Source: Nymphaea colorata (taxonomy: Eukaryota; Streptophyta; Magnoliopsida; Nymphaeales; Nymphaeaceae). Taken from it: DNA of 64,000 bases. The position numbers were made by a program, and so were the translations under genes. Positions 13 to 49,929 of the stretch are shown here, in pieces (the first letter of the stretch is position 1; every line of letters begins with the position of its first letter). Location: positions 17,673,354 through 17,737,353 of the forward strand of contig NC_045142.1 of the NCBI RefSeq assembly GCF_008831285.2, written 5' to 3'. Below the pieces are notes generated by a model, which saw only the letters and a list, made by a program, of their open reading frames with translations, ran no database searches and had not been told where the DNA came from.

Positions 13-3000
13 CAGGGGCGGAGGGAGACCCGGGCCCGCCTGGGCCATGGCCCGGGTGAGCTTGTGAGGAAAAAAAAAAATCAAATTAAAAAAATTAGTT
101 TTTTTTACTCTGGCCCAACCCGTAGATGGACTTGGCCCGACCCAAGATGGTCTTGGCCCGACCCGTCTTTCATCTTTTTCTCTCTCGCAATCTCGCTCAC
201 TCCGTCTGTGCCCTACCCTGTCCTTTCGCCCCTCTCTCTCCCGTTCGGATGGTCCCCTCCTCTCTGGCCCCTCTTTCTCCCCCTTGCTCGGATGGTCCCC
301 TCCTCTCTGGCCCACAACTGTAGAAGATAGCAGGGCCCTTTCTCTCACAGTCTCACGCCCTCTCTCTCGCTGGCTCCTCTTTCTCTGCCCTGGCCCACAG
401 GCCACAATCACACATCTCGCTAGATGCTAGCTCCTCCTTCCTGACTCACTGGCTGCCCTGGCCCACAGCACAAATCCACAATCACAGCTCTTGCTTGCTA
501 GTCGTTGCCCGCTGGCTCCCTCTCTCATTGCCCTGACCTGGCCGGCTGGCCCACAATCTGTTGCTTGATTTTGGAGACTGATGAAGCAGGGTTTGGGAAT
601 TTCTTCTTGGTTGTTTTGATCCAAATAGCACATTTGAGGAGAGAAATCAGATAAGGCAGCGCAGGAGGTACTCTAGTTTTCTGTAGCTAATTAATATTTT
701 CCCTATGTTTCTTATCTACACTAGAGTAATTTCTTGAAGAAGTTTAGAGGATATTTCTTCAAGTGAAGCGTTGCAAACATTAAAACTTTAGCACTGTGGA
801 TTCATGCTTTCAGACCATGCACTTTAGCATAATTTATTTCGTGGATGGTTTCCATTTTGTAAGATTTAAGTAAAATTAAACTCTCCTGTATATAACACTA
901 AAATTCAGTTTCTGTTGGACTAAGGGCGAAAGGTCTGACCAGGACTGCTCTTAACAGTTAACCCCAACACTGGTGGTCACTCTTCTACCAGGTGTGCATA
1001 CGCATGCACAGACACGGGCTGAGAGAGAGAAAAAAAAATGGAAAAGGAGAGAGAAGTTCGTAAAGGAGACAAAATCTAGATCCACGTTTTTTATGCAATC
1101 TAATATTGTAGATATGATCTTAAGAAGAAGAACATGTATAAATTACACATTTATGGACTTTAATAATGTTTTTTAATAATAAAAAATGAACGGCTCTTAT
1201 AATACTAACATTTTCATAGTCGAAATATTAAATTATGTACAAAAATAACTTGAATTAAATATGATTTGTGTTGAACTAGTGTTTATGAATATATTGTGAT
1301 CTTCACTATATTTTTAAATGCAAAATTAAGAGGTTGGCTTTCGTCCCTTACCTAAATAATTTGGGAGATATCAGTAAATGAGAGAGATGAAGTTAGGCGA
1401 GCATATATTAATTATGGGCCATATCAACACAAACTTCATAGATATCCAATGTCAGGTCCTTCAAGTCATCCTCGTAAATTTCAAGCTTCATGGTTTCAAA
1501 AATTTTCATGGTTAGAATATTCTCCTAAGACAGACAGTGCATATTGTTTGCAGTGTTATCTCTTCAGTACTCCATATTCAAATGACAGTCCATTTATTAC
1601 TGAAGGATTCAGAGTTTGGAAGAGGGTGGGTGGTAATGAGAAACAATGTGCATTTCGTATTCATGAAGGGACAAGTCAAAATTCACCTCATAATATAAAT
1701 GTGAGTGCATTTAATGACTTAAGTCGTCAAAGCAAACACATAGATAAAATGATTGGAAAGCAAAGTTCAGAGCTTGTTCACAACAACCGCTTGAGATTGA
1801 AGGCATCTGTAGACGCAATTCGTTGGTTAGCATTTCAAGCTTGTGCTTTTAGAGGCCATGATGAAAGTTCAAGTTCAATGAATCAAGGTAACTTTATTGA
1901 GTTCATTAAAACTTTAGCTAGTTATAATGACAAAGTTGCACAAGTTGTCTTGGATAATGCTCCAAAGAATGCTAAATATACATCACCAACAGTTCAGAAA
2001 GAAATTTTACATGTTTTTGCAAGTAAAGTGAGAGCTAAAATTATAGAAGAAATTGGTGATGCTAAATATTGTATTATTATTGATGAAGCTCGAGATGAGT
2101 CCAAGAGAGAGCAAATGGCTGTTGTTCTTAGATTTGTTAACAAGCAAGGTCAAGTTCAAGAGCGATTTTTAAGTGTTGTGCATGTAAGGGATACTACAGC
2201 AATTACTTTGAAGAATGCAATTTGTACTTTGTTATCTCAACATAATCTTAGCATTCAAGATATACGGGGTCAAGGATATGATGGTGCTAGTAATATGCGA
2301 GGTGAATTAAATGGATTGCAAGCATTAATTTTGAATGAATGTCCTTATGCATATTATGTTCATTGTTTTGCTCATAGATTACAACTTGCACTTGTTGCAA
2401 CTTCAAAAGAAGTTGGTCATGTTCATAAATTTTTTGAACAGTTAACATATGTAATTAATGCTGTTAGTGCAAGCAGTAAACGTAATGATGAATTGCATGA
2501 AGCTCAAGCAAATGAATTTGCATTCAGAATTGCTATAGATGAACTTGAAACTGGAAGAGGACTTAATCAAATTGGATCACTACAGCAGCCTGGTGATACT
2601 AGATGGGGATCTCATTTTGTGTCTGTGTGCAGTTTATTAAAAATGTTCAATGCAACATGTGTAGTATTGGAAAATTTAAGAGACAATGGATCAACATCTC
2701 AAATACGGGGTGAAGGTCTTTCAGCTTATGACATGATCACATCCTTTGACTTTGTATTTATTTTACACTTGGTACAACAAATTTTGGGACAGAGTGATAC
2801 TCTTTGTCAGTCATTGCAAAGGCAAAGACAAGACATTTTAAATGCAATGACTATGGTTGATAATTCAAAAAAGTTCCTACAAGAACTCAGGGAGAATGGT
2901 TGGGATTTATTTATAGAAATTGTGGGAGCATTTTGTGTGACACATGATATCCCTATTCCAGATATGGATGCTCAATATTTTGTCAGAGGATCACGTTCTC

Positions 3001-4167
3001 GTCGTGAATGCAATTTTATTACAGTGAGACATCATTATCATGTCGATATTTTTATTGCTGCTATTGATTCTCAACTGGTAGAGTTGAATAGTAGATTTAA
3101 TGAAAATTCTATGGAAATACTACGTTTGATGTCGACATTCGACCCTAGAGATCAATATGAGTCATTTAATGCACAAGATGCATACACTCTTGCAGAGAAG
3201 TTTTATCCTGAAGATTTTCTAGACTGTTTAAATTATCAGTTGATGCATTATAAAAATGATATTTGTCATCATCCAAGTTTTCAAAATTTGGGTACACTAT
3301 CAGATGTATGTCAAGCAATGATACATAGTAGAAAAAGTGAAGGATATCCTTATGTATACAGGTTGCTTAGTCTGATTTTAACGCTTCCTGTCTCCACAGC
3401 AACCACAAAAAGGGCATTCTCTGCTATGAAGCTTATTAAAACAAGGTTGCGTAACAAAATGGAGGATGAATTCTTTGCTGATTGTTTGCTTTTGTATATT
3501 GAGAAAGAAATTGCCCAAATGTTTGATTCCAATGATATTATTGATGCCTTTTACAAGATGAAAAGCCGTAGAGCACAATTGCAATAGGTAAAGTATTTTG
3601 TTGCATCATTTTTATGTTAATGTTTATTTGAGTCATTATTTAGTTTCAATAATAAATGATGTAGTTTTTGTTTATATTTTATTGTGCAGGTGAATGAATG
3701 ATGATATGTAACTATTTTCAATAAAAACAGAAGAAACAACGGATTGTGTTACATAGAAAGAATACAAAACGGCTTGTTTTAGGTAAGTAACATGTTTTGA
3801 TTTTGGGGTTTATATATATATTTGTTTGCTATATTTTGAGTTGTGATATTTGCATGTCCACCTTATACTCACTGTTTACACTTACGCCACTGTAATAGAA
3901 ATAGAGCACCTTATCTGCTGAGGACAGATCGCGCTTTGTGTTAATGACACAAGCAATTATTAAATGTGCCGTAGGACAGGTCGCGCTTCACGTTCATGAC
4001 GTGGGCAATTATATACGACATATGTTCAGTTTTACTATCCTGTCGTTTGCAAATATTATCTAAAGTGTATAAGTATATATAATAATAATAATATAATATA
4101 ATATATTATATTATAGTTCATTAGACTGTTTGGCCCGCCCCTGAGAAAAATCCTGCCTCCGCCCCTG
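13..4167 (+). mobile_element. Complete hAT-superfamily DNA transposon, apparently autonomous
   Basis: The element begins CAGGGGCGGAGGGAG at 13 and ends with the inverse, CTGCCTCCGCCCCTG, at 4167. These terminal inverted repeats match over about 15 bases with one or two mismatches. It is flanked by a perfect 8-bp direct repeat CCTATAAG at 5-12 and 4168-4175, and an 8-bp target duplication is diagnostic of hAT. Inside lies one long transposase frame (1449-3587). The first 650 bases are CT-rich, C-heavy leader/promoter sequence, and 3588-4140 is an AT-rich 3' region. The paralogous L2 locus has no element: CCGATAGT at 37144-37151 sits where the insertion would be, although that alignment is loose. 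The perfect target repeat and open frame suggest a fairly young insertion. Confidence 0.93.
1449..3587 (+). CDS. hAT transposase, TTF zinc-finger / DUF4371 / hAT C-terminal dimerisation (zinc finger MYM-type 1-like)
   Basis: The 712-codon frame has no internal stop. Domain order fits the plant TTF-type hAT family. A TTF-type finger lies at about residues 15-90, with WF..FSWLEY and C33xxC36. A DUF4371/RNase-H-like catalytic part lies at about 120-400, with IIIDEARDES (D212), GYDGASNMRG (D278), the VHCFAHRLQL C-x-x-H motif and GDTRWGSHF (D383). The hAT dimerisation region is at about 640-690 (LPVSTATTKRAFSAMK). The product would cut and paste this element in the nucleus. The annotated ATG is probably not the true start: the frame is open back to a stop at 1353-1355, and the upstream codons 1383-1409 read RDEVRRAYI, a block conserved in this family before the finger. 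The native N-terminus probably comes from an unidentified upstream exon. The stop is followed by an AT-rich 3' region with a possible intron acceptor near 3687. Confidence 0.92.
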   Translation: MSGPSSHPRKFQASWFQKFSWLEYSPKTDSAYCLQCYLFSTPYSNDSPFITEGFRVWKRVGGNEKQCAFRIHEGTSQNSPHNINVSAFNDLSRQSKHIDKMIGKQSSELVHNNRLRLKASVDAIRWLAFQACAFRGHDESSSSMNQGNFIEFIKTLASYNDKVAQVVLDNAPKNAKYTSPTVQKEILHVFASKVRAKIIEEIGDAKYCIIIDEARDESKREQMAVVLRFVNKQGQVQERFLSVVHVRDTTAITLKNAICTLLSQHNLSIQDIRGQGYDGASNMRGELNGLQALILNECPYAYYVHCFAHRLQLALVATSKEVGHVHKFFEQLTYVINAVSASSKRNDELHEAQANEFAFRIAIDELETGRGLNQIGSLQQPGDTRWGSHFVSVCSLLKMFNATCVVLENLRDNGSTSQIRGEGLSAYDMITSFDFVFILHLVQQILGQSDTLCQSLQRQRQDILNAMTMVDNSKKFLQELRENGWDLFIEIVGAFCVTHDIPIPDMDAQYFVRGSRSRRECNFITVRHHYHVDIFIAAIDSQLVELNSRFNENSMEILRLMSTFDPRDQYESFNAQDAYTLAEKFYPEDFLDCLNYQLMHYKNDICHHPSFQNLGTLSDVCQAMIHSRKSEGYPYVYRLLSLILTLPVSTATTKRAFSAMKLIKTRLRNKMEDEFFADCLLLYIEKEIAQMFDSNDIIDAFYKMKSRRAQLQ

Positions 4168-4175
4168 CCTATAAG

Positions 4176-5187
4176 TAAAGGCCTAAAGGGTCCATCTTAT
4201 TGGAACCCGATCCCTTGACATTACTCACAAAAAACTTTTGATGTTTTTATTTATTGGTTATAATAAGTCAAGCTTGAAGAAGACGAAAAAAAATGTGGTA
4301 ATTTTTTTCAAAAAATTAAATAATTAAAAGTAAAGGAAAAATAAAATATGTAAACAACTAAGAACAGGGGCAGAAAAAAAATAGATTTACATCAGATAAA
4401 AATAGAAAATAAAAAAAAAAGTCTAGCACCATGAAAACGTGAAAAGAAAAATAAAATGAAAAAACCATGCTTTCCCTTCGTGGTTTTCTGTTTTTTCAAA
4501 AAAATATTGTTCTTTTAAATTTTAAACAGCTAATTTCTTTATCGTATTCCTTTCATAAAAAAATCTATTTTTTTTTGTAATGATGCTTGACATTATGGGT
4601 AGGGGTGGAGGGAAGGGGGAGGTTCTTGGCCCCACCCAATTGCCGTTGCCAAGATAGGGTCCACATCTCAAATTTTAAAAACTTTCAAAATTTATATGTA
4701 AATATAAAAAAAATTGTTTAATGTATATAAAAAAAATTAAAAAATTTTATTTTAGTTACTATTAAAATTTTGAAACTATAATTTAGTCCCTGCAATAAAA
4801 AATCACCTTTAAGTGTCGACTTTTAAATATTAAGGGGTTCTTAGATTCTAAAAGAAGATCCGATAAAATGTCTCTAATATAAAGGTATGTATATATGGCT
4901 TTTGGAAAAAACAAAAAAAGGTAACACCAAAAGTTGACGTGAAACTTGTTTTGACCTACTTACTTACTTTATGCGTATGGTGACATTTTTTATTTTTCAA
5001 GTTTAGATTAGCACTTCAATATGGTCGCTTTTCAAAATAAAAAAGCAAAAATCCATAAAATCAGCTCAACTTTTGATCTTGAGAACAATGAGTCTCGTTC
5101 TCTTAACCACGCAATTTTTTTTTTTGTAATGTACAGTTAAATGTAATATATTCACTAGTTAGCTGACTTTGATTTTCATGAGCTCTG
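4176..5187. other. Non-coding flank of block L1
   Basis: No gene is visible. The sequence is AT-rich and aligns with 37152-37830 in L2, for example the shared CATCTTATT and CCCTTGACAT strings. The stretch at about 4602-4830 resembles a transposon tail (GGGGTGGAGGGAAGGGGG followed by AT-rich sequence and a TAGTCCCTGC-like end). The same tail occurs at 37303-37487, where it ends GGCTCCGCCC. Confidence 0.6.
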
Positions 5188-5190
5188 TTA

Positions 5191-6270
5191 GGCCCTGTTT
5201 GATGCACAGACATTTTACTGTACATGGGGTTGAATTTGCCTTTTCACGATTAAAACAAACGCAGGAAACTTTTTTCTGCCCAATTCAATTAACCATGCTA
5301 AATTTACCCTCGAAAAAAAAAGTCCAAACATGAAGGGGGAAGACTTTTTACCACCGATTTGCCCGTCAGGGCTTTCTCATCTCCTTCGGTTGATCCCCTG
5401 CTCGTGTAGCGTAGCCGTCCTTTTCATCCGCATCTGCAGCCGCCAGGACGCCGCGTAGCAGGCCGACGCCGGATCGCCTGAGCCTGCCATCAACCCCGTG
5501 GAGTGGGCGGAGCAGGACCGCGTCGCCGTCGCCGTTTCTTGGCGTCCCAGCGATCTTCCGGCGGGATTCCGGTGGCTGGAGCGAAAGAACTGTCGACGCT
5601 TTCTGGCGTTGGGCACACTTCTACTGGGCGCCATACGACGAGATGTCATACCGGGCAAGAATGCGACCGCCGGGGGGACTGATCCCCATCATCTCCCCTG
5701 ATCTGAACCGCCGCTTCAGACCCCAACCTGAATTAAACACCCTTCATTCTTTCTCGTAAATTTTTGCCTTCTTAAGAACGAGGTCTTGTCTTCTGCTTTC
5801 GCTATGTGTAGTCATGGATTTTCATAATAAAGGCGCGGTGAATTTTGAACATACATGGGTACTGCTAAATTTCAGGCTTCCGAGCTTAATCTGGCTCGAA
5901 TTGAAGTGAAATCGTTATGTTCAACGATCTTATGCAACAGATATCACAAGCATGTAACAAGTTCTTAGAATGGAGCGTCTTTACCCTACCCCACCAGAAC
6001 AAATTAATGTATTAACTTCATGTTAGTTAACACGTTAATGAACCCCAACTTTTCTGCTTCAAATGTTCTGTCCGAATAGTTCGATGCAACGGTCAAAAAT
6101 TTTATCCATAAAAAATTTTTCGTGTTCAGCAAACACCCAAGTTTTTTTCTAGAAAAAATATCCTAAGCCATCAAACATGGCCTGGTTTTGGAAATGGTAA
6201 ATTTTTCCCTAGTGTATACTTACCTAGCATTTTTTTTCTCAAAAAAAAATTTGTGCCATCAAACGGGGCC
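5191..6270. mobile_element. Non-autonomous PIF/Harbinger-like element (1080 bp, TTA target duplication)
   Basis: The ends are GGCCCTGTTTGATG at 5191 and CATCAAACGGGGCC ending at 6270, which are inverse repeats with one mismatch in 14. TTA flanks both sides (5188-5190, 6271-6273), as expected for PIF/Harbinger. L2 carries the unoccupied site with a single TTA (37827-37829) between recognisably matching flanks. L3 keeps only the 3' end of the same insertion (56104-56289). The core at about 5377-5720 is strikingly GC-rich compared with its AT-rich ends and may be captured host sequence, but I could not identify it. No transposase is present. Confidence 0.85.
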
Positions 6271-7205
6271 TTAAAGCTGAAGGCACAATACAAAGTTGAC
6301 GGCACATTAATAATAGACAAGAAGAAAACATGGACTTTTCTTTTCATTTGGAGAAGTGGGATGAAAACCCCGCACCCACTCCGAAATCAGAATGTAATAT
6401 ATTTACTTTTATAATTTTTTTAAAATTTAAAAATTGAAATAAAATGGGAGAAAGGTTAGGGGTTAGCTTGCGCTCTCTGTTGGACAGTAGTATGATGAAA
6501 TAATGCTCTTGTTCACCTAAAAATAGAATCTTTCTTTTTAGTGTAAATAGAAAACGTTGAACCATTGATTGTCATATTCTTAATAAAGTTGTGGCTTCAT
6601 TTGCTTAAAATAAAAGTGCAAGACCAATTTAAAAATTTTGAAAACTGAATACATACATGTGTGATTGGAACTGAATGCTTCATCAAGCTTACTTCATTAG
6701 AGATCAAAGTCAACATTTCATAAAGGAGTCATAAAATGCATCTACCTGAATTTTTTTTTCCCAAACGTGAAGGTTTTAACTGGTGGCCAAGCCAGGATTT
6801 TTAGTCGTGACACAGACTTGGTGTGGGGATTGCACATATTTAGAGTTATAGCAAGGTGTTGAGACATTGTTATTCAAATTTTTGATGGGCTGGGGTGGGA
6901 TTCAAAAAATAAAGGCCTCAATGTAAAGCGGGAGTAAGGAATGTTTCGTCGCAAGAGCTGAATTATAATTTCAAAATTTTAACATGAGCTGAAATAAAAT
7001 TTTTCAAATTTTTGATGTAAGTTAAACTAGAAATTTTAAACGGGGGAGCCAAGTCCCCTGGCGGCCCCCTCCCTCTGCCCAAGGTGCGGGTTGCACGTAC
7101 GGATAATGGCAAGCCCCTCATTGTTGGCGGAAATCAGCCCCTCGACATTTTGACAGTAACTTTTGCCTTATAAAATCTTTAAAAATCTTAATTTGGCTTT
7201 ATAAA

Positions 7206-9059: not shown

Positions 9060-10548
9060 AAATAGTGTTCCACGAGATTTGAATATTTTTAAACAAGTAC
9101 CCATTCAATAAATTTTTCCACCTCCATTACTACCTAAGACCTACCAAACCAATACCAATACCTTTGGAATGGCTAAAATACACCAAAATTGGTCACGTCC
9201 TCTGCGTCAGTAGGGGTGCACAACGAGTCGAGTTACTCGAACTCCACTCGTTTAACTCAACTCGTAAGTTTAAACGAGTTGCTTATTTAGTTAAACGAGT
9301 CGAGCTCGAGTTGACGAGCCGACTCGTTTAATTAATCGAGTCGAGTTCGAGTTCATTTGACTGAACTCGTTAAAGCTCGTCTCGGCTCGTTTAGTTAATG
9401 AACCGGTTTTTTTAAAACCGATTCAGACGAAAAAGCGGGAAGAACCAGTTTTTTTTTAGGGTTTCCTTGCTTAAGCTACTTTCGTTTTCGTTCTCACTTC
9501 TCCCTCTGATCCTCTCTGAGCTCTCTCCGAGACTCCGACTCCGACTCTCCCTTTCTCGCCTCTCGCCTCTCGGTCTCTCCATCTTCTCCTTCTCTTCTCT
9601 TCTCTAGTTCTCCCGTCTGGGAGTCTCTGACGTCTGCAGGAGGAACCAGTCGTCTGCGGCCGTGGGCAACTTCAGCTCGAGTTCAAGGTCAGCCGGCTGC
9701 TCCGCCTTCAGCTCAAGGTGAGGTACCCATGGTCGCTCCCCAAAAGAAACTTGTACTTTCTCCTGAATCTGCTGGATAAAGTCCTCCATGGTCGTTTTTC
9801 ATTAGCTTTCTCTTCGTTTCTTGGTTCAACCTTTCTTCTTTTGCTTTTCCCTCTCCGTCTCCTCGGTCACATCCGAACGCCTCTCCCTGGTTCGCACGAA
9901 GAACTAGATACACGCTCTGCTCATCTCTTTTGCAGCGTGAGGTGAGGTTTTGCTTACTTGTGGGGTTGTTGACTTGTCAGTTTTGATTTCTCTCCCTTTG
10001 CCTCGCTCTTTCTCTGTATCTCTGCCTCTCTTTTTCTGTTTCTCTATTTCTGTTTCTCAGTTTCTTTTCGCAGTTTCAAAGTTCCACTCATTTTTTTATT
10101 TGAATATGACTGCAGGAACTGTGTGCGTTCTGTGTTTGTATACATGTATAAGGTGGACTCTGGAAACACATGGATATGATCATGTGACTTGGGAACTGCC
10201 CCAGTATTCAGTACATATAAGGTTTTCCGTTTATATTTTTACTCTTCATCAGCGGAATATGTAATTTTGAACTCTGTTAGTGTTTTTATCATGTGAATAT
10301 GATCTGATTTGACACTCGTGAGTCATGGTCATATTTTTTGCAGAGAGTTCTAGAAAAGTATGTGAGGTGGGGAACAAGAGAAACCCCTATAGGAAGTGTC
10401 TCACTGGTGGACATAATTCTGTTAATATGAGAGCAATTTCTCTTTTTATTGCATGTCTTCGTAGCAATAGCATGTCTTTTATGAACATTTTGTCCTGCTT
10501 TTTTTTTTTCTTATGTAGATGTAACCTGAAAAGGAACAAAGAAGGGGG

Positions 10549-10612
10549 TACAGTTTTGGTGCAATATTGTGGGAGCTTGTAACAATGCAACAACCATGGG
10601 TTGAGCTTAGCT
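10549..10612 (+). pseudogene. Partial duplicate of a Raf-like kinase exon inside the hAT element
   Basis: In frame, the sequence reads YSFGAILWELVTMQQPWVEL, the kinase subdomain IX region of CTR1/EDR1-type Raf-like MAPKKKs. It is nearly identical to part of the longer fragment at 11136-11272, so one copy was probably duplicated within the element. Flanking bases do not continue the kinase match. Confidence 0.7.
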
Positions 10613-11135
10613 TTCTCAGCAGAAGTTGTATTTAGCAGTTGATGTTCCTTGACTAGTTGAATTCTTAGTTCTTAGTAGTTGTCCATTGCAATCGCCAATT
10701 TCTTTTTAGAGTTGTTTGCCAATTTATGTTTGTGGTGTTATGCAGTTACATATGCTTACATAAGCTTACTTTTTCAATCAACAATTTCGTACATAGTACG
10801 TGAAAATGTGATAACCATGAGCTCATGCAGTTTTCATATAATGATTCCTTATTGTTGGTTTTGTTGTTTGATGTTTTTGTTGACTTTTGTCCTCCCTGTA
10901 TTGTTCAAAACTTGCCCATATTTTCTAAAAGAAACATTTGTTTATCCATGTGACAAACCAATGCGTGGTACACTTGTTTGTACTATGAATGTGATGCATG
11001 ATGAGTACTGTTGATTGTAATATAAGTTGAAAATTATGAATATGCTCTCATAGTTCGGAGCTAGAGGTTACATGGTTTTTCAGTTTAATTATGAGAGAGC
11101 CTCCTAATGATCATATGTTCATACTGTCCCTGCAG

Positions 11136-11272
11136 CCTGAGTAGATGGCTCTCGAGTTCCTCCGTGGAGAGCCTTCGAATGAAATTCTGATGTATACGGT
11201 TTTGGTGCAATATTGTGGGAGCTTGTAACGATGCAACAACCATGGGTTGAGCTTAGCCCTGCACAAGTCATC
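11136..11272 (+). pseudogene. Captured exon fragment of a Raf-like MAPKKK (CTR1/EDR1 family)
   Basis: The fragment follows an acceptor-like CCCTGCAG. It reads PE-stop-MALEFLRGEPSNE, then after a one-base deletion SDVYGFGAILWELVTMQQPW, then VELSPAQVI. This matches the kinase activation-loop end and subdomain IX of Raf-like MAPKKKs (family pattern PEWMAPEVLRxEPSNEKSDVYSFG). The TGG of PEW has become TAG and there is a frameshift, so it cannot encode a kinase. The adjoining 11275-11351 stays open (LLHVEDESPSLLVKLL) and ends before a GT; it may belong to another captured exon, but I cannot assign it firmly. Confidence 0.8.
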
Positions 11273-11930
11273 TAAAGCTTCTGCATGTGGAAGATGAGTC
11301 ACCGTCCTTGCTTGTGAAGCTTTTGCAATTGGGAAATGACATAATCTCTATGTTAACAGGTAATTGAAAGTCATCTAATCTGCAGCTAGCTTCTGTGCAC
11401 TTCACTATGAAGGCTCTGTTTGGTTGGTTAGGATAAATTTCTGTTGCTTCTTCAGATGGGTAGATCTCTGATAAATTTCTGTTCCCTCTTCTGGTCTCCT
11501 GGTTGTTGACTGCCTCATGACTTCTAATAGAGAAGTAAATTTTGACAAAATAGAGCGCAAGTAGAATAAAGAACAGGGTGGAAATCATTGTAAAGAGTTC
11601 GGGAAACCAGGTGAGACCCTTTAGTCCTGTAAGAGGGGCTTTTCCACTTTTTCATTCATAGAGTATTGAGCTTCATTGCCAAACCTTCAGGTTGGTACAA
11701 GTTCTGTTAGTAGCCTAGTGGCCTTCAGTCAATGACAGTTATTGGCCCTAACCATGTAGATTTCTGCAGCTAGCTTCTGTGCACTTCATTATGAAGGCTC
11801 TGTTTGGTCGGTTATGAATTTAGGATAAACCCAGTTCTTTACTGGTTTTTTAATTGATGTTTTCACATAGTAGTTAGAAGTTCAGGTTTTTAGATACTAA
11901 CCCTGGATCTTGAAATGTTCATACTTGCAG

Positions 11931-12153
11931 AATCAAGAATGTGTCTCCTGCTTCCTACAGGCTTGCGGTCTCTGTCATCCAAAATTGCATAGAAACGCTT
12001 GAGCCTTTTGTCTGAATGTTCTTGGCATCATCATTTATTGATAGAGGAGCTAGAGGCAGTGAACTTGGAGAAGTTTATCACGAACTTGAAATTTTCCACT
12101 GTGCCCTTCAGATTTTTTTTGCTGTGATCTCGAACTTGATACAGTCATTGCTT
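11931..12153 (+). pseudogene. Captured exon of a PDS5-like sister-chromatid cohesion protein
   Basis: The exon is bounded by an acceptor-like CTTGCAG and a donor-like GTATGT. It reads NVSPASYRLAVSVIQNC and IETLEPFV, then a stop, then FLASSFIDRGARGSELGEVYHELEIFHCALQIFFAVISNLIQSLL in pieces. The pattern matches plant PDS5A-type HEAT-repeat proteins (LEPxVCxFLTSC, then YHEIIFxI...APQMLLAVIPxLTQELL). PDS5 is a cohesin regulator. One in-frame stop (TGA) follows EPFV, so this is a decayed exon carried by the transposon. Confidence 0.75.
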
Positions 12154-12599
12154 GTATGTATAATGTATTCCAAAAATTGTTGACAATGTGAACATAATTA
12201 ATGCCAGGTGGTTTTACATATCTTTTTGATGAAACTGTTAGCAGTAGTACAATTGATTTGATTCAGTAAACGAGTCGAGCTCGACTATTGGTTTAATTCT
12301 TAAACGTTAAACGAGTCGAGCTCGACTGATGGTTTAATTCTTAAACGTTAAACGAGTCGAGCTCGTGTTAGGGAACTCGACTCGAGTTCCCCTTTGAGCC
12401 GAGTCGAGTTCGAGCTGGGCAAGCTCGGGCTCGACTAGCTCGTGTGCAGCCCTATGCGTCAGCCATATGAGAACCAGCTTATTCGTCGGCTCGGTTCGGC
12501 CCCCTTTGACAAATTTGTGCACATTGTCTTGCTTCTAGCTTTGAACCCCAACGAAACATGTGGGCCCCACTCACACTGTCTCTCTGTTTCTTGCCTCTT

Positions 12600-12607: not shown

Positions 12608-12699
12608 TCCAAACGTAAGCGCAGCCCTCTCATAAGACACCTGATCTTTCCGTTCCGGTTAGAGAGAGAGGAAGGGCAGAACTGAAAACACTGCACCAG

Positions 12700-13059
12700 A
12701 ACGCTGCAAATTCTGTGAGCACTACCCCCTTTACGTCTCCCGGCGAAGCCTCTCCCTTTGTCCCAAAGAGTCGCAGGCGGCTTTCCCGTCCTGGTGACGA
12801 TGTGGCCTCCATCGCCGCCGCCGCCGTGAACGCCATCCTCTTCCCTCAGTTCTGCTCCACCTCCCCCTCTTCCCTCACCATCTGGCGGAGGTCGCTGCTG
12901 TTCCACGGCAAGGGCTACACCGTCTACGACTCCACCGGCAGCGTCGTCTTCCGGGTCGACAACTACGCGTCGGACCGCCCCCGAGAGACCCACCTCATGG
13001 ACCTCTCCGGCAACGTCCTCCTCACCATCAAGACCAGCAGGGTAACGTTACTGCATCAC

Positions 13060-18441: not shown

Positions 18442-18638
18442 CGCACCAAATTGCTTCACATGGTACATCACTAAGATCTTGTTCATCCTCCGTGAAGATC
18501 CTCCTGTTCCGATTTCCAAGATAAAGGGAAAAGGCAAAGAAAGATTATTGTGATGGCATACATCATTCCTTGTGCAGATTTTCTTCCCTCCTCCATGCCA
18601 TATGGATAAAATTTACCTAATTAAGACATGTGGAAATT

Positions 18639-18640
<2 letters not shown>

Positions 18641-18713
<73 letters not shown>
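18641..18713. repeat. Compound (TA)n(GA)n microsatellite
   Basis: About 20 TA units run directly into about 16 GA units. The M2 copy at 40809-40870 has the same structure but is shorter. Confidence 0.93.
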
Positions 18714-18715
<2 letters not shown>

Positions 18716-20161
18716 GAATTGAAAAGAGTCATCCAACTTACTCACAGGGGTTCACTGGTCTATCATGATAGACTGTTGAGGGAAAAAAAAAGTGACAAAC
18801 ATTTTCTTCATTTAGTATTACTTTGCATCTTTTTCTCTCTTTTTTTTCTCAACCGTCCATCATGATAGATCAAACTGCGAGTGAACTTGATACCAAAAGT
18901 GAAACAGAGAGCCTCTTTTGTGATAAGTGTTAAGATATTATTGGACATCCATTACCATGGGAGTTATGCCTCAGTTTTCTGTTTTGCCTATGGAACCACA
19001 TTGTTTAGACCTAAACAATGTTTGTCCATCTAATTAACAGTCATGACCTGCACTTCTTTTATCATTTAAAATTTGATTCTAGTGATAAGAGGTACCCTTA
19101 CATTCAAACAACATTTGAAAGCTTTGGATCTCAGAGTCAACGTGTTTTGGCATCCACCCTTTGTCTTAAATCTATAGATCTGTCGACCGACTCCACCCCC
19201 AACAAGGCACATGATCAATGATTTTTGTGTTCAACCCTGGTTTCTAAATCTACTAATTTTGTCTAAACAATAGTTTCCAAAGCAACATTGATCTTAGATC
19301 ACCTCATATTACCTATCAAACAAAGAGAATACCCTCTCCCCAAGCAAGTGTGCATCATTTTTTTGGAATTCATGTATTATCATATGAATAAGAGGCGGAG
19401 GCAGGTGTGGCCAATTGCCCACAGGGATCCCAAAACTTCTTATTTCCTATTGATATTTGTAGACAATTTTTCTAGTTTACATATTGGTGCCCCTTAAAAA
19501 TTTAAAACCTTATGTGGCTCTCCGCCCTGACATGAATATTCTCGAGATTCGCAAGGCCAATGTCAACCTCATATTTCCTAATTTGGGACCGCCTCATTCT
19601 AACATATACAAGATTCGGTGTGGGCGTCATGGGAGATTTGACATTAAATTGAGCTTTGAAGCCTTTCAAAGGCCCTCTAGACAAGTGACATAAACAAGCT
19701 TGTCATACATTCTAAATGCATAATGTTGCCCTCTTTATATGCCAAGTTGGGCAATGAACTCTCTAGAAAAGTGGTAGAAAAAGGAAAGGAACTGGTAGAG
19801 CATAATTGAAAGCCCCTCCCCCCATCCTTCCCATCCCTGGAAAAAACAAACAAGGTTGGTTTCCTATTCATTCATCTTTATGAGTAATAAATGCATTTAT
19901 CCCCACTTACAGTTGCTCATCCCTTTCATGGATAATGGTACAAATTGCTTTTCTTCTAATAAAATAGGATAAATGAATGTCTTTACACTGAAAAGAACGG
20001 GTCAGACTCGGATTGGTATACAAGTAAATCCCACATGATGTAAGCTCATTGCAGTAGCCACAGCAAGTTGTTAAAACCATAAGGGAATCCAAGAAAAATA
20101 AATAAATAAATAAAAGGCTAGTCCCAAAAGAAGGCCTACTACACACCCATACCAAAGTAGA

Positions 20162-20554
20162 CAGCGCTGTTCAATGTGTCGAGCCAATTCGAGCCCGAGT
20201 TGAACTCACTCAGTTAAGTTTGACTTGAGAACGATTTGAGCACGAGCTTAACTAAAAATTCAAGTTTATAAACAACTTGTGTTTGAGTTACATAAATTCC
20301 ACTCGATTAAACTTGAGTAAGGCTCGTTTAATCTAGGTTTATTCTTTTCTTTTTGTAATTTTCAAAAGTAAACCAAAGAAAGGGACCACGTCAAATGTGG
20401 ATTTGGTAAACGAGTCAATCTGTGACCCAGCCTACTGAGTCATGCTTGAGCTGACCTTGTACATCTCGATTTGAGCTCAAGCTGAGCAATATATGAGTCG
20501 AGTTGAGTCGAACTGACCGAACTCAACCACAACTTGACTCACGTACAGCCCCAC
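20162..20554. mobile_element. Degenerate hAT-like MITE in M1
   Basis: The ends CAGCGCTGTTCAATGTGTCGAG-like and CTTGACTCACGTACAGCCCC are imperfect inverse repeats. Both ends are crowded with GAGTCGAG-type words like those of the hAT element at 9211. Possible flanking repeats are AAGTAGA (20155-20161) and AAGCAGA (20555-20561). No coding capacity. Family assignment is tentative. Confidence 0.5.
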
Positions 20555-23500
20555 AAGCAGATAGGTTGGGAATAAATAAAAAAAAAAACTTAAAAAATTA
20601 GTTCCTTACAGTTGTCGTTGTGTATGGAAATTCATGGCACAAGAGATAAACACTGACTGAACTTTTCTTTTCCTGGTGGGGCCCACTCTTGATATATAAG
20701 CGTATCGATATGTGACCCACCAAATATAGGTATATGTGTGTGGATTACCAACTTCTTTTAAATTTAAATTTGAACAAAAAGCACCAATTTTTTTTTTGGG
20801 GGGATGTATTGGCTGACTGTGGAAGGTGGATTTGTGATGCCTTAAAATGGCTGCTCAGTGGTGGAGTTACCACAATAGAAAGTCTCCCCATTGTTCACCT
20901 ACTCGGAGAATCCATCAAGTGGCGAAGCTAGAATTTTTTGGCTCAGAACTTAGATTCGCTGACGCAGGTTGTGGGCACCGTATGCCACTGGACGTGGGTC
21001 TTGCTTCACTACAATGGGATTTTGGAAGAGATGAGGTGGGTACTAGCTCTCATCAGCCACACTATCGGTCCGTTACACGTGTAAAAACCCCAACGGTTGA
21101 CCTTATAAATAGATGTCTTGTCTTCACCTTTTAGGTTAGTTTGGTCTTTGACCATGGGGATGTAAGCTTTCGTCCTTCTTTTAGATAAGAATTGAGCTTT
21201 GGAGCCACATATTTATGATCCAGGGGACACCAACCCTCATGACTTGTCAAAATCTCAATGTAGAGATCATGCAAATGGCCTCTGCCTTACTAGACAACTT
21301 GTGCTCCGCCAATGGCAAAGCCAAATGTGGGCTTGTGTGGGCAGTACCCCACTCAGAGCCACATAAATTAATTTATTAGATATTGGTGAGTTTATTAGAT
21401 GTTGATGTCCTGTTTTACTATGAATTTACGGGGTTTAAGATTCCTTTAAGGGTTTAAATTTGGATTGCAATGTTCTTAGCGTACTCATGTCGATGTATAC
21501 CCTTATTTAAAACCCTTAACATTTCTTTTTCTAATATCTCAAAAACCCTCAGCGATACATCAAAAGTTTATAACTCAATCTTGATTATTGTACTAAGTTT
21601 CTGGGCCCAACCACTACTTTAGATCATGTTTTGCCAATAGATATTAGGACGAGGTTTTCTTTGGAAGAAGATTTTTCATTTTGATTCCATGGCTATCCAC
21701 GGTTTAATTTAGGTGTCTATCAAAATTTAGTTAAAGCAACTAAAATAAGTTAAGGATAATCGTACACAAAAGTTTGTGTGTGTGTGTGTGTATTATATGA
21801 CACAAACAGATAGAATATGGATGGGAAGAGTTTTCATTGAGTACTTGGGTTGTGCCAAAGGGTCTTGTTAAAGTATGGACCAAGCGTGGTTTATGACCAT
21901 CCAGTTCTGATTCAAAAAAACATGACATGGAACATTTTCTCGATGAAGTTCGTCATTGTTGTCAACTGGTGTTGGTGTATGGTAGTTAGGACTAGGCATC
22001 TGGCCAGGGCTCGTAGCCCAGGCACTTTGCTGGCAGCCCAAGCTGGGCCTGTATAGTTATTCCGACCACCAACTTTATCCCCGTTGGGTACCCAGTTCGA
22101 TGTACACCCTTATTTAAAACTCTGAACATTTCTTTCTCTAATATCTCAAAAGCCCACAGCGATACATAAAAAGTTTGTAAGGAAGGAGCTAGCTGGAGGC
22201 ATCACGGTGAAGAGAAAGAAAGAAAAAGAGAGAGAGAGAAAGATGTTATGTAGTGACGGGCTGCCTACTAGCCCAACCAAGAGCTCCTCAGCCAAAAAAT
22301 TCTGGGTTGGTGACTCGAAGTGCCCCTCGACCAAAAAATTCCAGCTCAGCCATGGGTTCAATTTGAATTCTTGAAATATGAAGAGTCCTTTTGGGTCTAT
22401 CACCAGAGAAAAAAATGACGAGCAGGTTCCTGCTCTAAAGGTCACTTTAATAAAATTCTTAGTAACGCCTATCTAATCTTTTTCTACATGCTCGATCAAT
22501 TTTTGCCGCATCATGGATGAATCCGATTATTCTGCCCCCTTACTCTTTTCTTTGTTTTCCATTTTGTAAATTTTCTATTTATAATCATATGTAATCATAG
22601 AGGATAACTCCATATTCAAACCTTATGCTGATGTTCGTTTATGAGTTTATGTTAATTGCTCAAGTTTAAACATATAAGTGAAGAAGAAATAAATTGAGTT
22701 AACAAATATAAGCACATGTAATGAGCACTAACATAACAAAAGCCAACAACGTTCAGCTTTTATCCCTCTGTCTAGAGCACACACGAGTCGAGCAACTCAC
22801 TAATGCCTCGTTTGATTGTCAAGTCTGAGCGAGTTAACTTCGATCAATTACAACTTGTCATTGCTCGCAGCAGCTCATGTTCAACTCACCACCTTATTGA
22901 ACCGAGTGAGACAAGCATGAAAAGAGCAGAACCTAAGTCAAGCGATGAGACACTTGGCCAAGCTTAACAAAAGTTTGAGCAAAAGAGACACTGGAAAAGG
23001 TTCTAAAATTTTCTGTTGGAAGACTTTATCTTTGTTAACAAGCCTAATCAAGCCAAATTAAGTTCAAATGGCTCACTCAAAACTTGACTCAATAAACAAG
23101 CTCAAAAGATCAGCTCCAGCTCAACCCAATCATCATCTGAGTCGAGCTCAAGCCCAGCTTACAAAACCTACAGGTAAAGACCAACACTCAAGAGTTTTCT
23201 ATACACCATGCATTAATCAACCACACACCAAAATGATGCAGCCCCTTTCGTTTACCTGTCGATTCTCTTCTGAACAAGCCTGCTAATTGAAACCATATTG
23301 CTTACCAGCCTTACTTAACAACGTACTGTCTTGACACTTTTAAGTAAACTTAGTAAAGGCGCCATTTTTTGCAAGTGCTGATAAGGCAAACTCAATAGGC
23401 AGTATAGGCTACTTCCCTGGATTGTTCTACAAACCATTTACTCCTGCCAATTTGAATTTATCTGGACTGTCATTGACAATATTGTGTAGGACGTAATGTA

Positions 23501-23803
23501 TGGTATACCCATCTGTTGCATCATCAGCTGATGTATACAGCATTACGACATACAAATGAAACCACGGAAGGTGATGAAAGAGTGAATCCTCAGAGCAGGA
23601 AGAAAGCTGACCGAAGGAGTGCGGGTGCCATGATTCAGATAATAGGTTCTCCTGACTATTATGACACACGGCGCTAAAAAGTCCCACAAACCAGATCTTC
23701 GCTCAGATGCACATCCATACTGCGTTTGTTTGCGCGCATGTTTCCATGCTTTTGTGTGGAGGGAGAAGGGGAGAGAGACAGCTGATTTAAAGTTGGATAC
23801 TTA

Positions 23804-24184
23804 TGTTGGATAGTGGCCATTTAGCCCTATTTGGATTTCTTGTAACTACAAGGCAGTTAGGAGATTAACTTTGAAACCTTATCACGAGACAAAGATTCAT
23901 CTTTATCTTGCTCCTTCCTAAAAACTCTCACCCTAACTGCCCGCTGGGTTTTGGGGAAACCTAAGGGGCTGTTTTACGGTTTAACCTTAAAGGAGCCCCT
24001 TAGAAGGAAACCCCTGAAGTTTCTTCTTTCTCTTCTTCTTCTTGCTTTATTTTTTTTTCAACTTGGAGTTGTCGCTGCTTCTTTCCTTGCAATCTGGAGC
24101 CACTGGTGAACATACTATGCAGGCGACATACTACGGAGGAGACGACTTGCTAGAGGCCTCTGTCCTACTTCAATTAATCCAACA
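23804..24184 (+). repeat. Ty1/copia LTR in M1
   Basis: This 381-bp unit begins TGTTGGATAG and ends GATCCAACA-like (AATCCAACA), so it has the canonical TG...CA ends within the inverted repeat TGTTGGA/TCCAACA. It is followed at once by TTGGTATCAGAGC (24185-24197), the primer-binding site complementary to initiator tRNA-Met. Leader sequence continues to the gap. Confidence 0.85.
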
Positions 24185-24547
24185 TTGGTATCAGAGCTTT
24201 ACTTTTCGAACTCCAATAAGTGAAATTCGACTTCTGTCGTGCTTGTGCAGATTATACTACCTGCGTATGCATGTATGCATGTGTGTCGTCTGTGTATCAT
24301 GCTCTTTTAAGATCTATTTCCTGAGATGAAAATAAAGCATGCTAGGCTATACTGAGTTGAAGCGTGTAGCATGCTAGTCTTAATTGGTTTTGAAACTATC
24401 TGGTTTCTATATTATGTCGTTCTTCTTTTTTTTCTCTCTGTGTCTGCGAGAGACCGAGACCAGAGCCAAGCCTAAAATTAAGCAAGCATACCCAAGTTAA
24501 GGGCTCTGTCTGAGAGTTCCGACCTACTGTAGATAGTAATTGTAAAC

Positions 24548-24647
24548 NNNNNNNNNNNNNNNNNNNNNNNNNNNNNNNNNNNNNNNNNNNNNNNNNNNNN
24601 NNNNNNNNNNNNNNNNNNNNNNNNNNNNNNNNNNNNNNNNNNNNNNN
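24548..24647. other. Assembly gap of 100 Ns
   Basis: One hundred Ns, probably a placeholder of unknown length. Sequence resumes with AATTGAAACCATATTGC, which already occurred at 23285, so the assembly steps back about 1.26 kb across the gap. The M2 paralogue reads straight through at the equivalent point (about 46637). Confidence 0.98.
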
Positions 24648-25166
24648 AATTGAAACCATATTGCTTACCAGCCTTACTTAACAACGTACTGTCTTGACAC
24701 TTTTAAGTAAACTTAGTAAAGGCGCCATTTTTTGCAAGTGCTGATAAGGCAAACTCAATAGGCAGTATAGGCTACTTTCCCTGGATTGTTCTACAAACGA
24801 TTTACTCCCTGCCAATTTGAATTTATCTGGACTGTCATTGACAATATTGTGTAGGACGTAATGTATGGTATACCCATCTGTTGCATCATCAGCTGATGTA
24901 TACAGCATTACGACATACAAATGAAACCACGGAAGGTGATGAAAGAGTGAATCCTCAGAGCAGGAAGAAAGCTGAACCGAAGGAGTGCGCATGCCGTGAT
25001 TCAGATAATAGGTTTTCCTGACTATTATGACACACGGCACTAAAAGTCCCACAAACCAGATCTTTGCTCAGATGCACATCCATATTGCATTTGTCTGCGT
25101 GCATGTTCCATGCTTTTGTGTGGAGGGAGAGGGAGAGAGAACAGATGATTTAAACTTGGATACCAC
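24648..25166 (+). repeat. Second partial copy of the M end
   Basis: The stretch aligns with 23286-23803 and 45389-45904 but carries more differences than those two show to each other. It leads into the next LTR. No gene is present; antisense frames here simply recur in all three copies. Confidence 0.85.
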
Positions 25167-25544
25167 TGTTGGATAGTGGTCATTTAGCCCTATTTGGATA
25201 TCATGTAACTACAAGGCAGTTACGAGATTAACTTTGAAACCTTATCACGAGATAAAGATTCATCTTTTATCTTGCTCCCTCCTAAAAACTCTTTCACCCT
25301 AACTGCCCGCTGGGCTTTTGGGAAACCTAAGGGGCCGACCTATTTATGCCCAGCAACTCTCTGTTACGGTTTAATCTTGTATTCCCTAGGCCCGTTTGAT
25401 GGCTAGAATATATTTCTGAAAAAAAATTCCAGAAATAAATTTTTGTTATTGAAGAATGGGAAATATTTTCCGTTTTTCCAAAACCAGCTTTTGTTTGTTA
25501 TAGAGGAAATATTTTCTGGAAAAAAAATTCTTCGTTTGGGTGAA

Positions 25545-29062: not shown

Positions 29063-29519
29063 GAGAGCATCAAAATTAGCAAAGACTAAGAAATTAAATT
29101 GAACAAACTTCCATGCATGGAAACATAAGATCATGTTGGCCTTGACTCTTGAAAGGCTGGTTTATGTAGTCAACGAGCCCTTTCTCATTTTAGGAGACAA
29201 ATCTTCAGTTGAGGAAAGAAGCGCATATAAGTCCTTTACAATGATGACTTGATAGCTAAAACCAACATGTTAGCCTTCATGGAAGGTAATTTGATCATGG
29301 TATTTGAGGATTGTCCAATGGCCAAAGAAATGTTTGACACTTTCTCACTTAAATACAACACCATTACTACGATGCACCTACAATTGCTAGTAGAACAATA
29401 CAATTCGTATAAAATAAAGGAGTCAGACAATGTAGTATACCATGTTAACAAGATGTTGGTCATGGCTAAAGATATAGCTGTAGTGAGAAATGTCATATCT
29501 GACAACATGCCGATCAGCA
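29063..29519 (+). pseudogene. gag: Copia gag relic, R1
   Basis: The frame reads KLN..NFHAWKHKIMLAL, then after frameshifts MLAFMEGNLIMVFEDC, MAKEMFDTFS and VNKMLVMAKDI. This is the gag (UBN2-type) capsid region of Ty1/copia. It is broken by a stop-creating change near 29245 and ends abruptly at the join to the integrase relic. Confidence 0.8.
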
Positions 29520-29534
29520 CAATTCGAACAGCAA

Positions 29535-32500
29535 CACACAATGCATAGAACACCACAATAGAATGGTATTGCTGAGAGGTGTAACAGAACTCTCTTGAAC
29601 ATGGTGAAATCCATGTTGGCGGGTGCACAATTACCAAAAGAATTTTAGGGTGAAGCTGTGTTAACAGCTCAACCGCTCCTAATGAGAGATAGACTAGCGT
29701 AAAACCATATCTAAGACATCTGAAGAGATGAGGATCTATAGCACACATGAAAATTTTAGATCCATAAATAGATAAACTAGATAACAGATCAGTAATATGT
29801 GTGTTTATTGGATATCTAAAAGGATCTAAAGGTTACAGTCGTCATTGGGACTTATAGGAAGTAGAAATGTAGAGTTCTTAGAAAAATAGCCTGCTAATAA
29901 ACCGACTGGAGAACAGTTTGGTAACAAACCAACTAAGCATAAAACGTCTGAGGAACAGTCTAGTAATGAATCGATTAAAGATTAGTTAGGTAATAAACCA
30001 ACTGATCCAACTAGTTCGTCATTTCAGACTTTGTTAGGTCATAAAAGAGCTAGAGCTCCTTCTTCATATTTAATCAATTACTATATATATCTTGCGGATG
30101 AGTTATACTATTTAGCATATACTGACTAAATATCTGACAATCTGACATATGACGAATTCATAAACTCGCATGAATCGTCAGATTGGTTAAATGCTATGGA
30201 TAAGGAAATTGAATTCATAAAAAAGAATAAAGACTCAGAATTAGTAGATCTTCCTAATAATAAAATACTCATTGTATGCAAACGGGTACTAACTAAGTCA
30301 CCGGGGTGCGTCTTTTGGGCCCCCGCACCCGCGTCGACACGATGCTGGTGCCGGTACGGGTGCGGGTGCGACCCAGATTCGCACCCGACTACCATTTTGC
30401 AGGTGGCACTTTCCTTCTTCTTCCTTGCTGCCCACTCCAACATCATCTCATTCACCACCGGAATCGTCAATCCCAAACCCTCATTTCCAGCTTCTTCCAC
30501 CCCCAGATCTCCTCCCAGCTCCTCCTCTTGAGCTCCACCATTTCCCTCCTCTGCTCCACCATGAAACACATGGTCAGAAACCCAAACTGGCGTTCCAGCC
30601 ACCTGCCGAAAGATGCATTCAATTCTCTAGCCGGTTCTCCCACCGACGACCGTGCCCCCTTCTATAAGATCTGCCATTCTGCAAAGAGAGAGAGAGAGAG
30701 GGAGCGGCGCTTGTTGAAACTTGAAAAGAGGAGGAAGAAGACCACGGCATAAGATTGGGGCTAGGGTTAGCTACTTAAAATTGTCGTTCCTTATAAGCCC
30801 TCCAACTTTTTAGCATTTACCCAATAAAAGCCATTCTTATGAAACCCACTGATTTCAATGGCAATACTGATCTCGGATCAAATCCGAGTCTACCCAACTT
30901 AGCCTTAATCCCCATAAAATTATCCAATGCTTCATTAATTGCTCAGCACTGGTTTGGTTAGTGGCTTGAGTTACACTTGTCTTGTTAAATTGTTAATGCA
31001 GGGTCATCATTATTAATATATATTATGTTATTAAAATAAAATAATAATAATAATAATAAATACTCTCGCCGCACCTAAATTTTTTAAGATGTGGTGCACC
31101 GGCACCAACACCCGCACCCCTCATTTTGGTGACATAGGGTACTAAGGAGGAAGTATAAAGCTAATGGATCAGTCGAAAAATTCAAATTAAGACTTGTGGT
31201 GAAAGATTTTTCCCAAAAGGAATAAATTGATTACTAAGAAACCTACTCGTCGGTTGCAAAGTTTGCATCAATTAGAATAATTTTGGCTATCGCAGTATTT
31301 TTGACTTGGATATTTGTCAAATGGATGTGAAAACTGCTTTTCTAAATGGTGAGTTAAAGGAAACCATACATATTACCCAACCACAAGAGTATATCATCAA
31401 AGAAAAAGATGACAAAGTGTACAAGCTGAATAAATCATTGTACGGATTAAAGCAATCACCAAAATAGTGGTATTTTGCTTTTCACAAAACAGTTACAAAA
31501 CTTGGGTTTGTTGCAAACCAGCTAGACCATTGTGTACATGTCTAGAAAAGTGAAAGCCTTTTTTGTATTCAATCATTATATGTCGATGACATCTTATTAA
31601 CAGGAAATGATAATGACATGATATTCAAAACAAAGACTTATTGAACAATAACTTTGAAATAAAATACTTGGATGAAGCATCGTATATATTAGGAATAAAG
31701 ATCACTCGAGATAAAAACTCGAGAATTCTAAGTTTAAGCCAAGAACGATATATTGATAATATATTAAAGAAATTACGAACGGTAGACTGTAAATCAATTG
31801 GGACTCAAATTGCTATGGAGCAAATTTAAGTATGAGTGATTGTCCTGGTGAAGGACAACAAAAATTAAATGTTTCATATGCACAAGTTGTTGGCAGATTG
31901 ATGTATTTAATACTTTGTACCAGACCAGACATGTGATTTCCTTTCGGTCTGGTAAGCCGTTATCAAAGCAATCATGGTTGGCCTCACTGGCAAGCAATTA
32001 AAAGAATTTTTCAGTACATTAAAGAAATGAAAGGACTGAAATTGTCCTATCAAGCCGATGAGCTAACTCTAGTTGGCTATTCCAACGCTGATTTTATAGG
32101 TTGCAAAGGTGGTAGTACGTCTAGCTCTAAATATGTATTCCTCTTTGGAGGTGGAGCGATAGCCCGGTCCTGTAAGAAACAGGGACGTGTTGCTCAGTAC
32201 AATCAAGAAGCAGAGTATGTAGCATATAATGTTGCAACTGCTTTTGCTATCTAGATAAATCGGTTTTTGAAAGACTTGAAATTAGATCTTGAGCATGAAT
32301 CAGTTCAACTGTACTGTGATAATCAGGCAGCAATATCCCTTACAAAAAGTGAAGTTGTTAGTTCAAAAACTAAACATATAATGGGGAAATACCATTATGT
32401 TCTCGAAATGATTGAGAAAATTGAAATCTCAGTTGATTATATGTCTAACAATGATATGGTAGCTGATCCTTTAGCTAAGAAAATATCTGAATACTTGTTT

Positions 32501-32539
32501 TCAAAACATGCAGCCCATATGGGATTAAGATATATTTAA
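29535..32539 (+). pseudogene. pol: Copia pol relics (integrase end, reverse transcriptase, RNase H), R1
   Basis: An integrase C-terminal segment (HNGIAERCNRTLLNMVKSML) is followed by reverse transcriptase from about 30180 (WLNAMDKEIEFIKKN). The RT is interrupted by the 844-bp element at 30293-31136 and resumes with KTAFLNGELKE and the active-site motif YVDD at 31579-31590. RNase H follows (LYCDNQAAISL near 32309, ADPLAKKI near 32464). Multiple stops and frameshifts include a TAG after SPK near 31467. It cannot make a functional polyprotein. Confidence 0.85.
30293..31136 (-). mobile_element. Mutator-like non-autonomous element inside copia R1 (844 bp)
   Basis: It is flanked by a perfect 9-bp repeat GGGTACTAA (30284-30292, 31137-31145). 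R2 has the single unoccupied version GGGTGCTAA at 50687-50695. The ends TAAGTCACCGGGGTG and CATTTTGGTGACATA are inverse repeats. The interior begins and ends with CACCCGCACCC-type repeats, has an (AAT)n tract at about 31035-31060, and contains CT-rich, first-exon-like sequence. The same family, inverted, sits at 47664-48542. Nine-base duplications suggest Mutator-like elements. Confidence 0.85.
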
Positions 32540-40080: not shown

Positions 40081-40610
40081 TTGCATAGGTAGTACAAATT
40101 GCATAGGTAGTACAAATTCCATTTCTTGCCAAGTCATTGGAATTTTCGGAAAGTCAAAATACTAGGTTATAAACATTTCTTGCATGATAGTTAGAGCTGA
40201 GCAAATTGGCAAGAAATGGCAATTTGTACTACCTATGCAACAATTTTAACACTCCTTCTAAAATACAAATACCAGGTTATAAACAATTACTGCATGAGGG
40301 TTTATCCTAACTCTCCATGTTCAAACTCCAGGTTATAAACAATTACTGCAGGAGGGTTGATGGTGCGAGGGGCCCCATATATCATCCCTCTAATTATTAC
40401 TACTGCATCTACAATCTACCAACTCTCTAAACTACCATCCCTCTAATTATTACTACAGCATCTAGAATCTATCAACTCTCTAAACTACCATCCCTCTAAT
40501 TATTACTACAGAATCTAGAATCTACCAACTCTCTAAACTACAATCTCTCTAATAATAATGTCCAAGTTATAAACAATGTCCATAATCCTAACTCTCTTAT
40601 GGACATACAG
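40081..40610. repeat. Filler sequence with inverted and direct repeats at the LOR2 breakpoint
   Basis: About 530 bp has no counterpart in L1 or L3. It includes an inverted repeat with arms 40099-40132 and 40206-40240 (one 1-base indel) around a 73-base loop, and an 18-base word TTGCATAGGTAGTACAAA used twice at the start. It also has three related copies of a GGTTATAAACA-containing segment (about 40163, 40275, 40330) and three 53-bp tandem units (40383-40435, 40436-40488, 40489-40541) beginning CATCCCTCTAATTATTACTA. No coding sequence is evident. Confidence 0.85.
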
Positions 40611-40805
40611 CACCAAATTGCTTCACATGGTACATCACTAAGATCTTGTTCATCCTCCGTGAAGATCCTCCTGCTCCGATTTTCAAGATAAAGGGAAAAG
40701 GCAAAGAAAGATTATTGTGATGGCATACATCATTCCTTGTGCAGAATTTCTTCCCTCCTCCATGCCATATGGATAAAGTTTACCTAATTAAGACATGTGG
40801 AAATT

Positions 40806-40808
<3 letters not shown>

Positions 40809-40870
<62 letters not shown>
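40809..40870. repeat. Compound (TA)n(GA)n microsatellite in M2
   Basis: Counterpart of the tract at 18641, with fewer units in both parts. Confidence 0.92.
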
Positions 40871-40874
<4 letters not shown>

Positions 40875-42315: not shown

Positions 42316-42708
42316 CAGCACTGTTCAATGTGTCGAGCCAATTCGAGCCCGAGTTGAACTCACTCAGTTAAGTTTGACTTGAGAACGATTTGAGCACGAG
42401 CTTAACTAAAAATTCAAGTTTATAAACAACTTGTGTTTGAGTTACATAAATTCCACTCGATTAAACTTGAGTAAGGCTCGTTTAATCTAGGTTTATTCTT
42501 TTCTTTTTGTAATTTTCAAAAGTAAACCAAAGAAAGGGACCAAGTCAAATGTGGATTTGGTAAACGAGTCAATCTGTGACCCAGCCTACTGAGTCATGCT
42601 TGAGCTGACCTTGTACATCTCGATTTGAGCTCAAGCTGAGCAATATATGAGTCGAGTTGAGTCGAACTGACCGAACTCAACCACAACTTGACTCACGTAC
42701 AGCCCCAC
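42316..42708. mobile_element. Degenerate hAT-like MITE in M2
   Basis: Second copy of the element described at 20162, inherited through the block duplication. The ends read CAGCACTGTTCAATG and CGTACAGCCCC. Confidence 0.5.
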
Positions 42709-49916: not shown

Positions 49917-49929
49917 AGATCAACACAAT

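Follow-up and report, generated by a model that had tools for sequence, protein, structure and literature searches.

A hAT-type element in Nymphaea colorata with fragments of a Raf-like kinase gene and a PDS5 gene

Positions 9211-12454 of the window, the 64,000-nucleotide stretch of Nymphaea colorata DNA analysed here, make up a single inserted unit of 3,244 bp, as seen from its terminal inverted repeats (TIRs), its target site duplication (TSD) and a matching empty site. We are confident that this unit is a non-autonomous element of the Pack-hAT kind, in which genomic pieces from two or more plant genes are present, among them one encoding a CTR1/Raf-like MAPKKK and one encoding the chromosome-cohesion protein PDS5. 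The unit combines hAT hallmarks with two gene fragments, splice-like signals, signs of decay and two short internal duplications. Hence it represents a compact and well-bounded plant hAT element with pieces of two unrelated genes, for which an empty site is available within the same window. Since gene capture by hAT elements has been published for grapevine, maize and animals, the kind is already known, and the element, a well-bounded new Pack-hAT-like unit, is a clear though unexceptional instance of it.

Boundaries and terminal structure of the element

The element is flanked by a flush 8-bp TSD, TGCGTCAG, which was located by sequence and by a boundary scan at 9203-9210 on the left and at 12455-12462 on the right. 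The left TIR, TAGGGGTGCACAACGAG, occupies 9211-9227 on the forward strand, and the right TIR occupies 12438-12454 on the reverse strand. When the first 45 bases of the two ends were aligned, the left end TAGGGGTGCACA and the reverse-complemented right end TAGGGCTGCACA agreed in 11 of their first 12 bases.

The strongest evidence for these boundaries comes from a tandem array within the window, whose copies L1 (~12.5-18 kb), L2 (~39.7-40.1 kb, among the matches listed) and L3 (~57.5-64 kb) share segments of ~82-97% identity. Once joined, the flanks of the element align cleanly across the junction to L3 (57458-57480), where the element is absent and one copy of TGCGTCAG is present. L2 is likewise without the element near 39.65-39.7 kb, at a site with four extra bases and changed letters. 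The boundaries had been called firm in the first-pass annotation, and all three of their supports, the TIRs, the TSD and the empty site in L3, hold.

To place the element among similar structures, the whole window was scanned for arms alike in at least 11 of 12 bases, lying 0.3-10 kb apart and flanked by a flush 8-bp repeat. Apart from many AT-dinucleotide pairs, which were set aside, the scan returned three pairs, at 13-4167, 4772-6972 and 9211-12454. The same scan of ten Markov-resampled windows, with pairs counted irrespective of composition, gave none in seven windows and one in each of the other three. The A+T-rich pair at 4772-6972, with its duplication AAAATTTT, is probably due to chance. 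For the boundaries of 9211-12454, the empty site is stronger proof than the resampling scan. Together, the TSD and the empty site indicate one insertion, either of the present element or of a shorter ancestor, and gene capture may have followed the insertion into this site.

Both ends are rich in subterminal repeats, as revealed by repeat comparison and motif counts. On the left, direct and inverted repeats of the CGAGTCGAG type extend over 9224-9400, and on the right, 12261-12422 contains three copies of CGAGTCGAGCTCG spaced 41 bp apart and one more. All nine matches to ACGAGTCGAGYTCGA in the window (up to two mismatches; 0.05 expected) lie in the element ends. Of ten occurrences of the shorter CGAGTCGAG, eight are in the ends and two elsewhere (22784 and 44888). 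Counts of CGAGT/ACTCG follow the same distribution, with 13 in 9211-9450 (240 bp), three in 9451-12260 (2,810 bp) and eight in 12261-12454 (194 bp), so the repeat-rich zones are restricted to approximately the terminal 200 bp of each end. Repeat-rich ends are usual in hAT elements, and TAGGG or CAGGG is their usual start. Short TIRs with subterminal repeats at both ends and the 8-bp TSD thus provide the features of hAT-type ends. The 12-base TIR itself gave eight raw matches in the window (up to two mismatches), namely the two ends, one internal site at 11254 and five outside the element, while a 17-base version gave five matches against 2.91 expected.

Gene fragments and duplications in the interior

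The first gene fragment is an exon piece on the forward strand at 11136-11272, preceded by a splice-acceptor-like CTGCAG (11130-11135, forward strand, recognised by eye). With X placed at its stop and frameshift, it matches PF07714 at E 7.3e-7 and 29.2 bits, above the cut-off of 23.1, and it stays under the cut-off of PF00069. Its best match among PDB sequences is Arabidopsis CTR1 (3ppz, 3p86), at E 1.1e-16 over all 46 residues; MAP3K12 is far behind at E 8.3e-6 (both among the best 60 of 658 matches with E up to 1). The wide lead of CTR1 leads us to read the piece as a Raf-like MAPKKK (CTR1-type) fragment, in line with its initial assignment. As few plant kinase structures have been solved, a gene other than CTR1 may be the parent. 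The piece is decayed, with a TAG at codon 3, a frameshift after residue 16 and a TAA directly 3' at 11273-11275.

The second fragment lies on the forward strand at 11931-12153 and consists of 74 whole codons, one TGA among them, between an acceptor-like TTGCAG and a donor-like GTATGT. Its assignment to PDS5 agrees with a match to PF20168 at E 9.8e-8 and 30.7 bits, above the cut-off of 27, with X placed at the TGA. The similarity stops at profile positions 251-252, that is, in the final one or two codons ahead of the donor-like GTATGT. A search against PDB sequences gave no match up to E 10, so that its identity as PDS5 comes from Pfam only. The neighbouring stretch 11276-11359 was considered as a further PDS5 exon, but two of its frames joined to the PDS5 exon scored 31.1 and 29.8 bits against 30.3, and the candidate is unsupported. 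Due to the two internal stops and the one frameshift that they contain between them, neither the kinase nor the PDS5 piece can give a normal product. The spacing between the two exons is 658 bp, close to the 660 bp originally proposed.

When the whole element was translated in six frames, with X at stops, and scanned against Pfam up to E 1, protein kinase and PDS5 were the sole two families recovered. The PDS5 match (E 6.5e-6, 24.7 bits, under the cut-off of 27) falls in one forward frame and the kinase match (E 5.8e-4, 19.7 bits, under the cut-off of 23.1) in another, while the other four frames, including all three reverse ones, gave no family up to E 1. Eight short frames chosen from 70 gave the kinase at 9e-5 and PDS5 at 0.037, and in addition an OAR match (0.099) that looks like chance. 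The first-pass annotation had proposed that two unrelated host genes contributed fragments, all in the same orientation, a reading that depended on similarity to MAPKKK and PDS5 proteins; this similarity is found for both in the Pfam profile searches and for the kinase also in PDB, and both pieces lie in forward frames.

No family of transposases was among the matches of the six-frame scan, which extended to E 1. In addition, tblastn of the transposase from the other hAT element of the window (13-4167) against this one yielded only four matches, at E 2.3 to 8.1. With no transposase recognisable by either approach, the description of the element as non-autonomous stands, although it may still hold a much diverged transposase remnant. 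With low-complexity sequence masked, a search at E 1e-3 found no second copy of any part of the interior in the rest of the window.

Comparison of the interior with itself revealed two duplications that were absent from the first-pass annotation. Part of the kinase exon recurs upstream of it on the forward strand at 10549-10611, with identity at 61 of 63 bases. The duplication has sharp ends, and the copy alone reaches only E 0.22 against PF07714. At one site the upstream copy has Ser, as CTR1 does, and the exon copy has Gly; the upstream copy would therefore have been duplicated before that change or captured apart. The second duplication is a 55-bp block present on the forward strand at 11379-11433 and 11763-11817, its copies alike at 52 of 55 bases. 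Further to the left, at 9421-9720 on the forward strand, we found a pyrimidine-rich block with a G+C content of 0.537, which composition and sequence suggest to be similar to a plant 5' UTR. A third capture is one possible origin of this block; it may also have been the leader of a transposase gene since lost.

Route of capture and known cases

AG and GT signals, recognised by eye, adjoin the exons. For this reason, intron-containing genomic DNA rather than mRNA is the likely source of the fragments. We propose that they would have been copied as genomic DNA during the repair of a break, either one left by excision or one inside the element, and that the copying would have switched between templates. 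Short, sharp-ended duplications may be filler scars of such template-switching repair, in which case the 63-bp and 55-bp duplications would be filler from template switches; for breaks in maize, filler lengths of 1-131 bp are cited (PMC2686159). For its movement, the element would have depended on an autonomous relative acting in trans. This repair route, which we judge separately from the identity of the element, has in our estimate slightly better than an even chance of being correct.

Alternatively, two related elements near each other around host DNA could have been re-mobilised, with their outer ends moving together with the contents. Such a route has been proposed across all DNA superfamilies of Pack-TYPE elements, hAT examples among them (PMC8903248). 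However, no clear internal end is present, the sole internal TIR-like site (11254) is weak and sits in the kinase coding sequence, and repeats of the end type are sparse in the middle of the element. Furthermore, one such event would take up one neighbourhood, yet the two genes here are unrelated, unless they had been neighbours. We consider re-mobilisation unlikely. Given the parental loci, the two duplications are scars that could help to choose between it and repair-based capture.

The blocks of differing base composition within the element could suggest two separate or nested elements that only look like one, but there is one flush TSD pair, and the empty site in L3 lacks the whole 3,244 bp, which contradicts this for the outer unit and makes it highly improbable; a later insertion may nonetheless be nested within the element. 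A working chimaeric gene is just as hard to credit: although both pieces lie on the same strand, which in the first-pass annotation was taken to make chimaeric transcripts possible, and a donor ACAG/GTAATT at 11359/11360 could, by eye, join the acceptor at 11930/11931, the two pieces cover only short portions of their families (profile positions 171-213 of 258 and 178-252 of 1053), and a protein from both pieces joined would meet the TAG and frameshift of the kinase and the TGA of PDS5.

We compared the element with cases described in the literature. Close to it in structure, the feature compared here, are the Pack-hAT elements of maize, one of which extends the exon of a gene, from a study in which rice was also surveyed (PMC8903248). 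These are likewise non-autonomous, with TIRs, an 8-bp TSD and captured coding DNA, whereas the element described here combines two unrelated genes with internal duplications. Also in maize, two Ds2 and nine Ds-l4 elements with gene fragments were reported in 2011, when such cases were called rare for hAT; two of the Ds examples keep intron sequence, and errors of post-excision repair were suggested (PMC3260210). They share with our element hAT ends and a filler interior with gene fragments, but have Ac-type ends, and for some of them the source genes were located. The grapevine Hatvine-6 elements also have host-gene interiors, which are variable and often match host exons and introns (PMC2528002). 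In contrast to 9211-12454, where no transposase was recognised, they share transposase coding sequence.

Among animal Pack-TIRs, 208 of 370 are of the hAT type, and gap filling with template switching has been proposed (PMC8277862). Template switching is proposed for both; the animal cases, apart from their hosts, are mostly single-copy and attributed to gap filling in resident elements; most single-copy captures are ascribed to breaks inside the resident element, not to excision (PMC8277862). A paper on flax states that gene shuffling by hAT elements was reported in maize (PMC3544724), and in a 2026 review of gene capture the whole word "hAT" is absent from the main text (PMC13317346). The earlier view that capture is less often documented for hAT elements fits the literature of 2011, but cases of hAT capture have since been listed for grapevine, maize and animals. 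The combination of a kinase and PDS5 in a hAT element was not met in the literature searched, with search terms that did not include these gene names. Four TIR strings were also looked up; one or other of them occurred in 14 papers, none of them on transposons, as judged by title and the start of the abstract.

Surroundings of the element

The element lies upstream of L1, ~245 bp before the position where the L1 start codon would be expected. The L1 gene to its right encodes a LURP-one-related domain (PF04525, E 4.2e-21). At 12690-12710, L1 lacks the ATG that L2 (39950-39960) and L3 (57718-57728) have just before AACGCTGCAAATTC; L1 is perhaps a pseudogene, or starts elsewhere. One could imagine that L1 received splice sites from the element, together with a promoter and the 5' UTR-like block at 9421-9720, and that a new chimaeric transcript serves or silences the LURP-one-related family, a scenario that we regard as very improbable.

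A second, full-length hAT element occupies 13-4167, with TIRs of CAGGGGCGGAGG alike in 12 of 12 bases, a flush TSD (CCTATAAG) and a 743-codon stop-free frame containing DUF4371 and hAT dimerisation domains, and it may be intact. We considered it as the autonomous partner of 9211-12454 and rejected it because its TIR differs and the ends are unlike.

Elsewhere in the window, two stretches of ~6 kb, 18443-24547 and 40610-46637, are 98% identical, a closer match than between segments of the LURP array. An assembly gap of 100 N (24548-24647) borders the right end of the former, and on the far side of the gap 24648-25335 is a 95% repeat of 23285-23969. This near-identical pair may reflect a recent duplication or an assembly artefact. 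Two further related stretches, at 29231-32536 and 49565-51808, contain frames that we take, from their translations judged by eye and recall, to be those of a copia-like retrotransposon.
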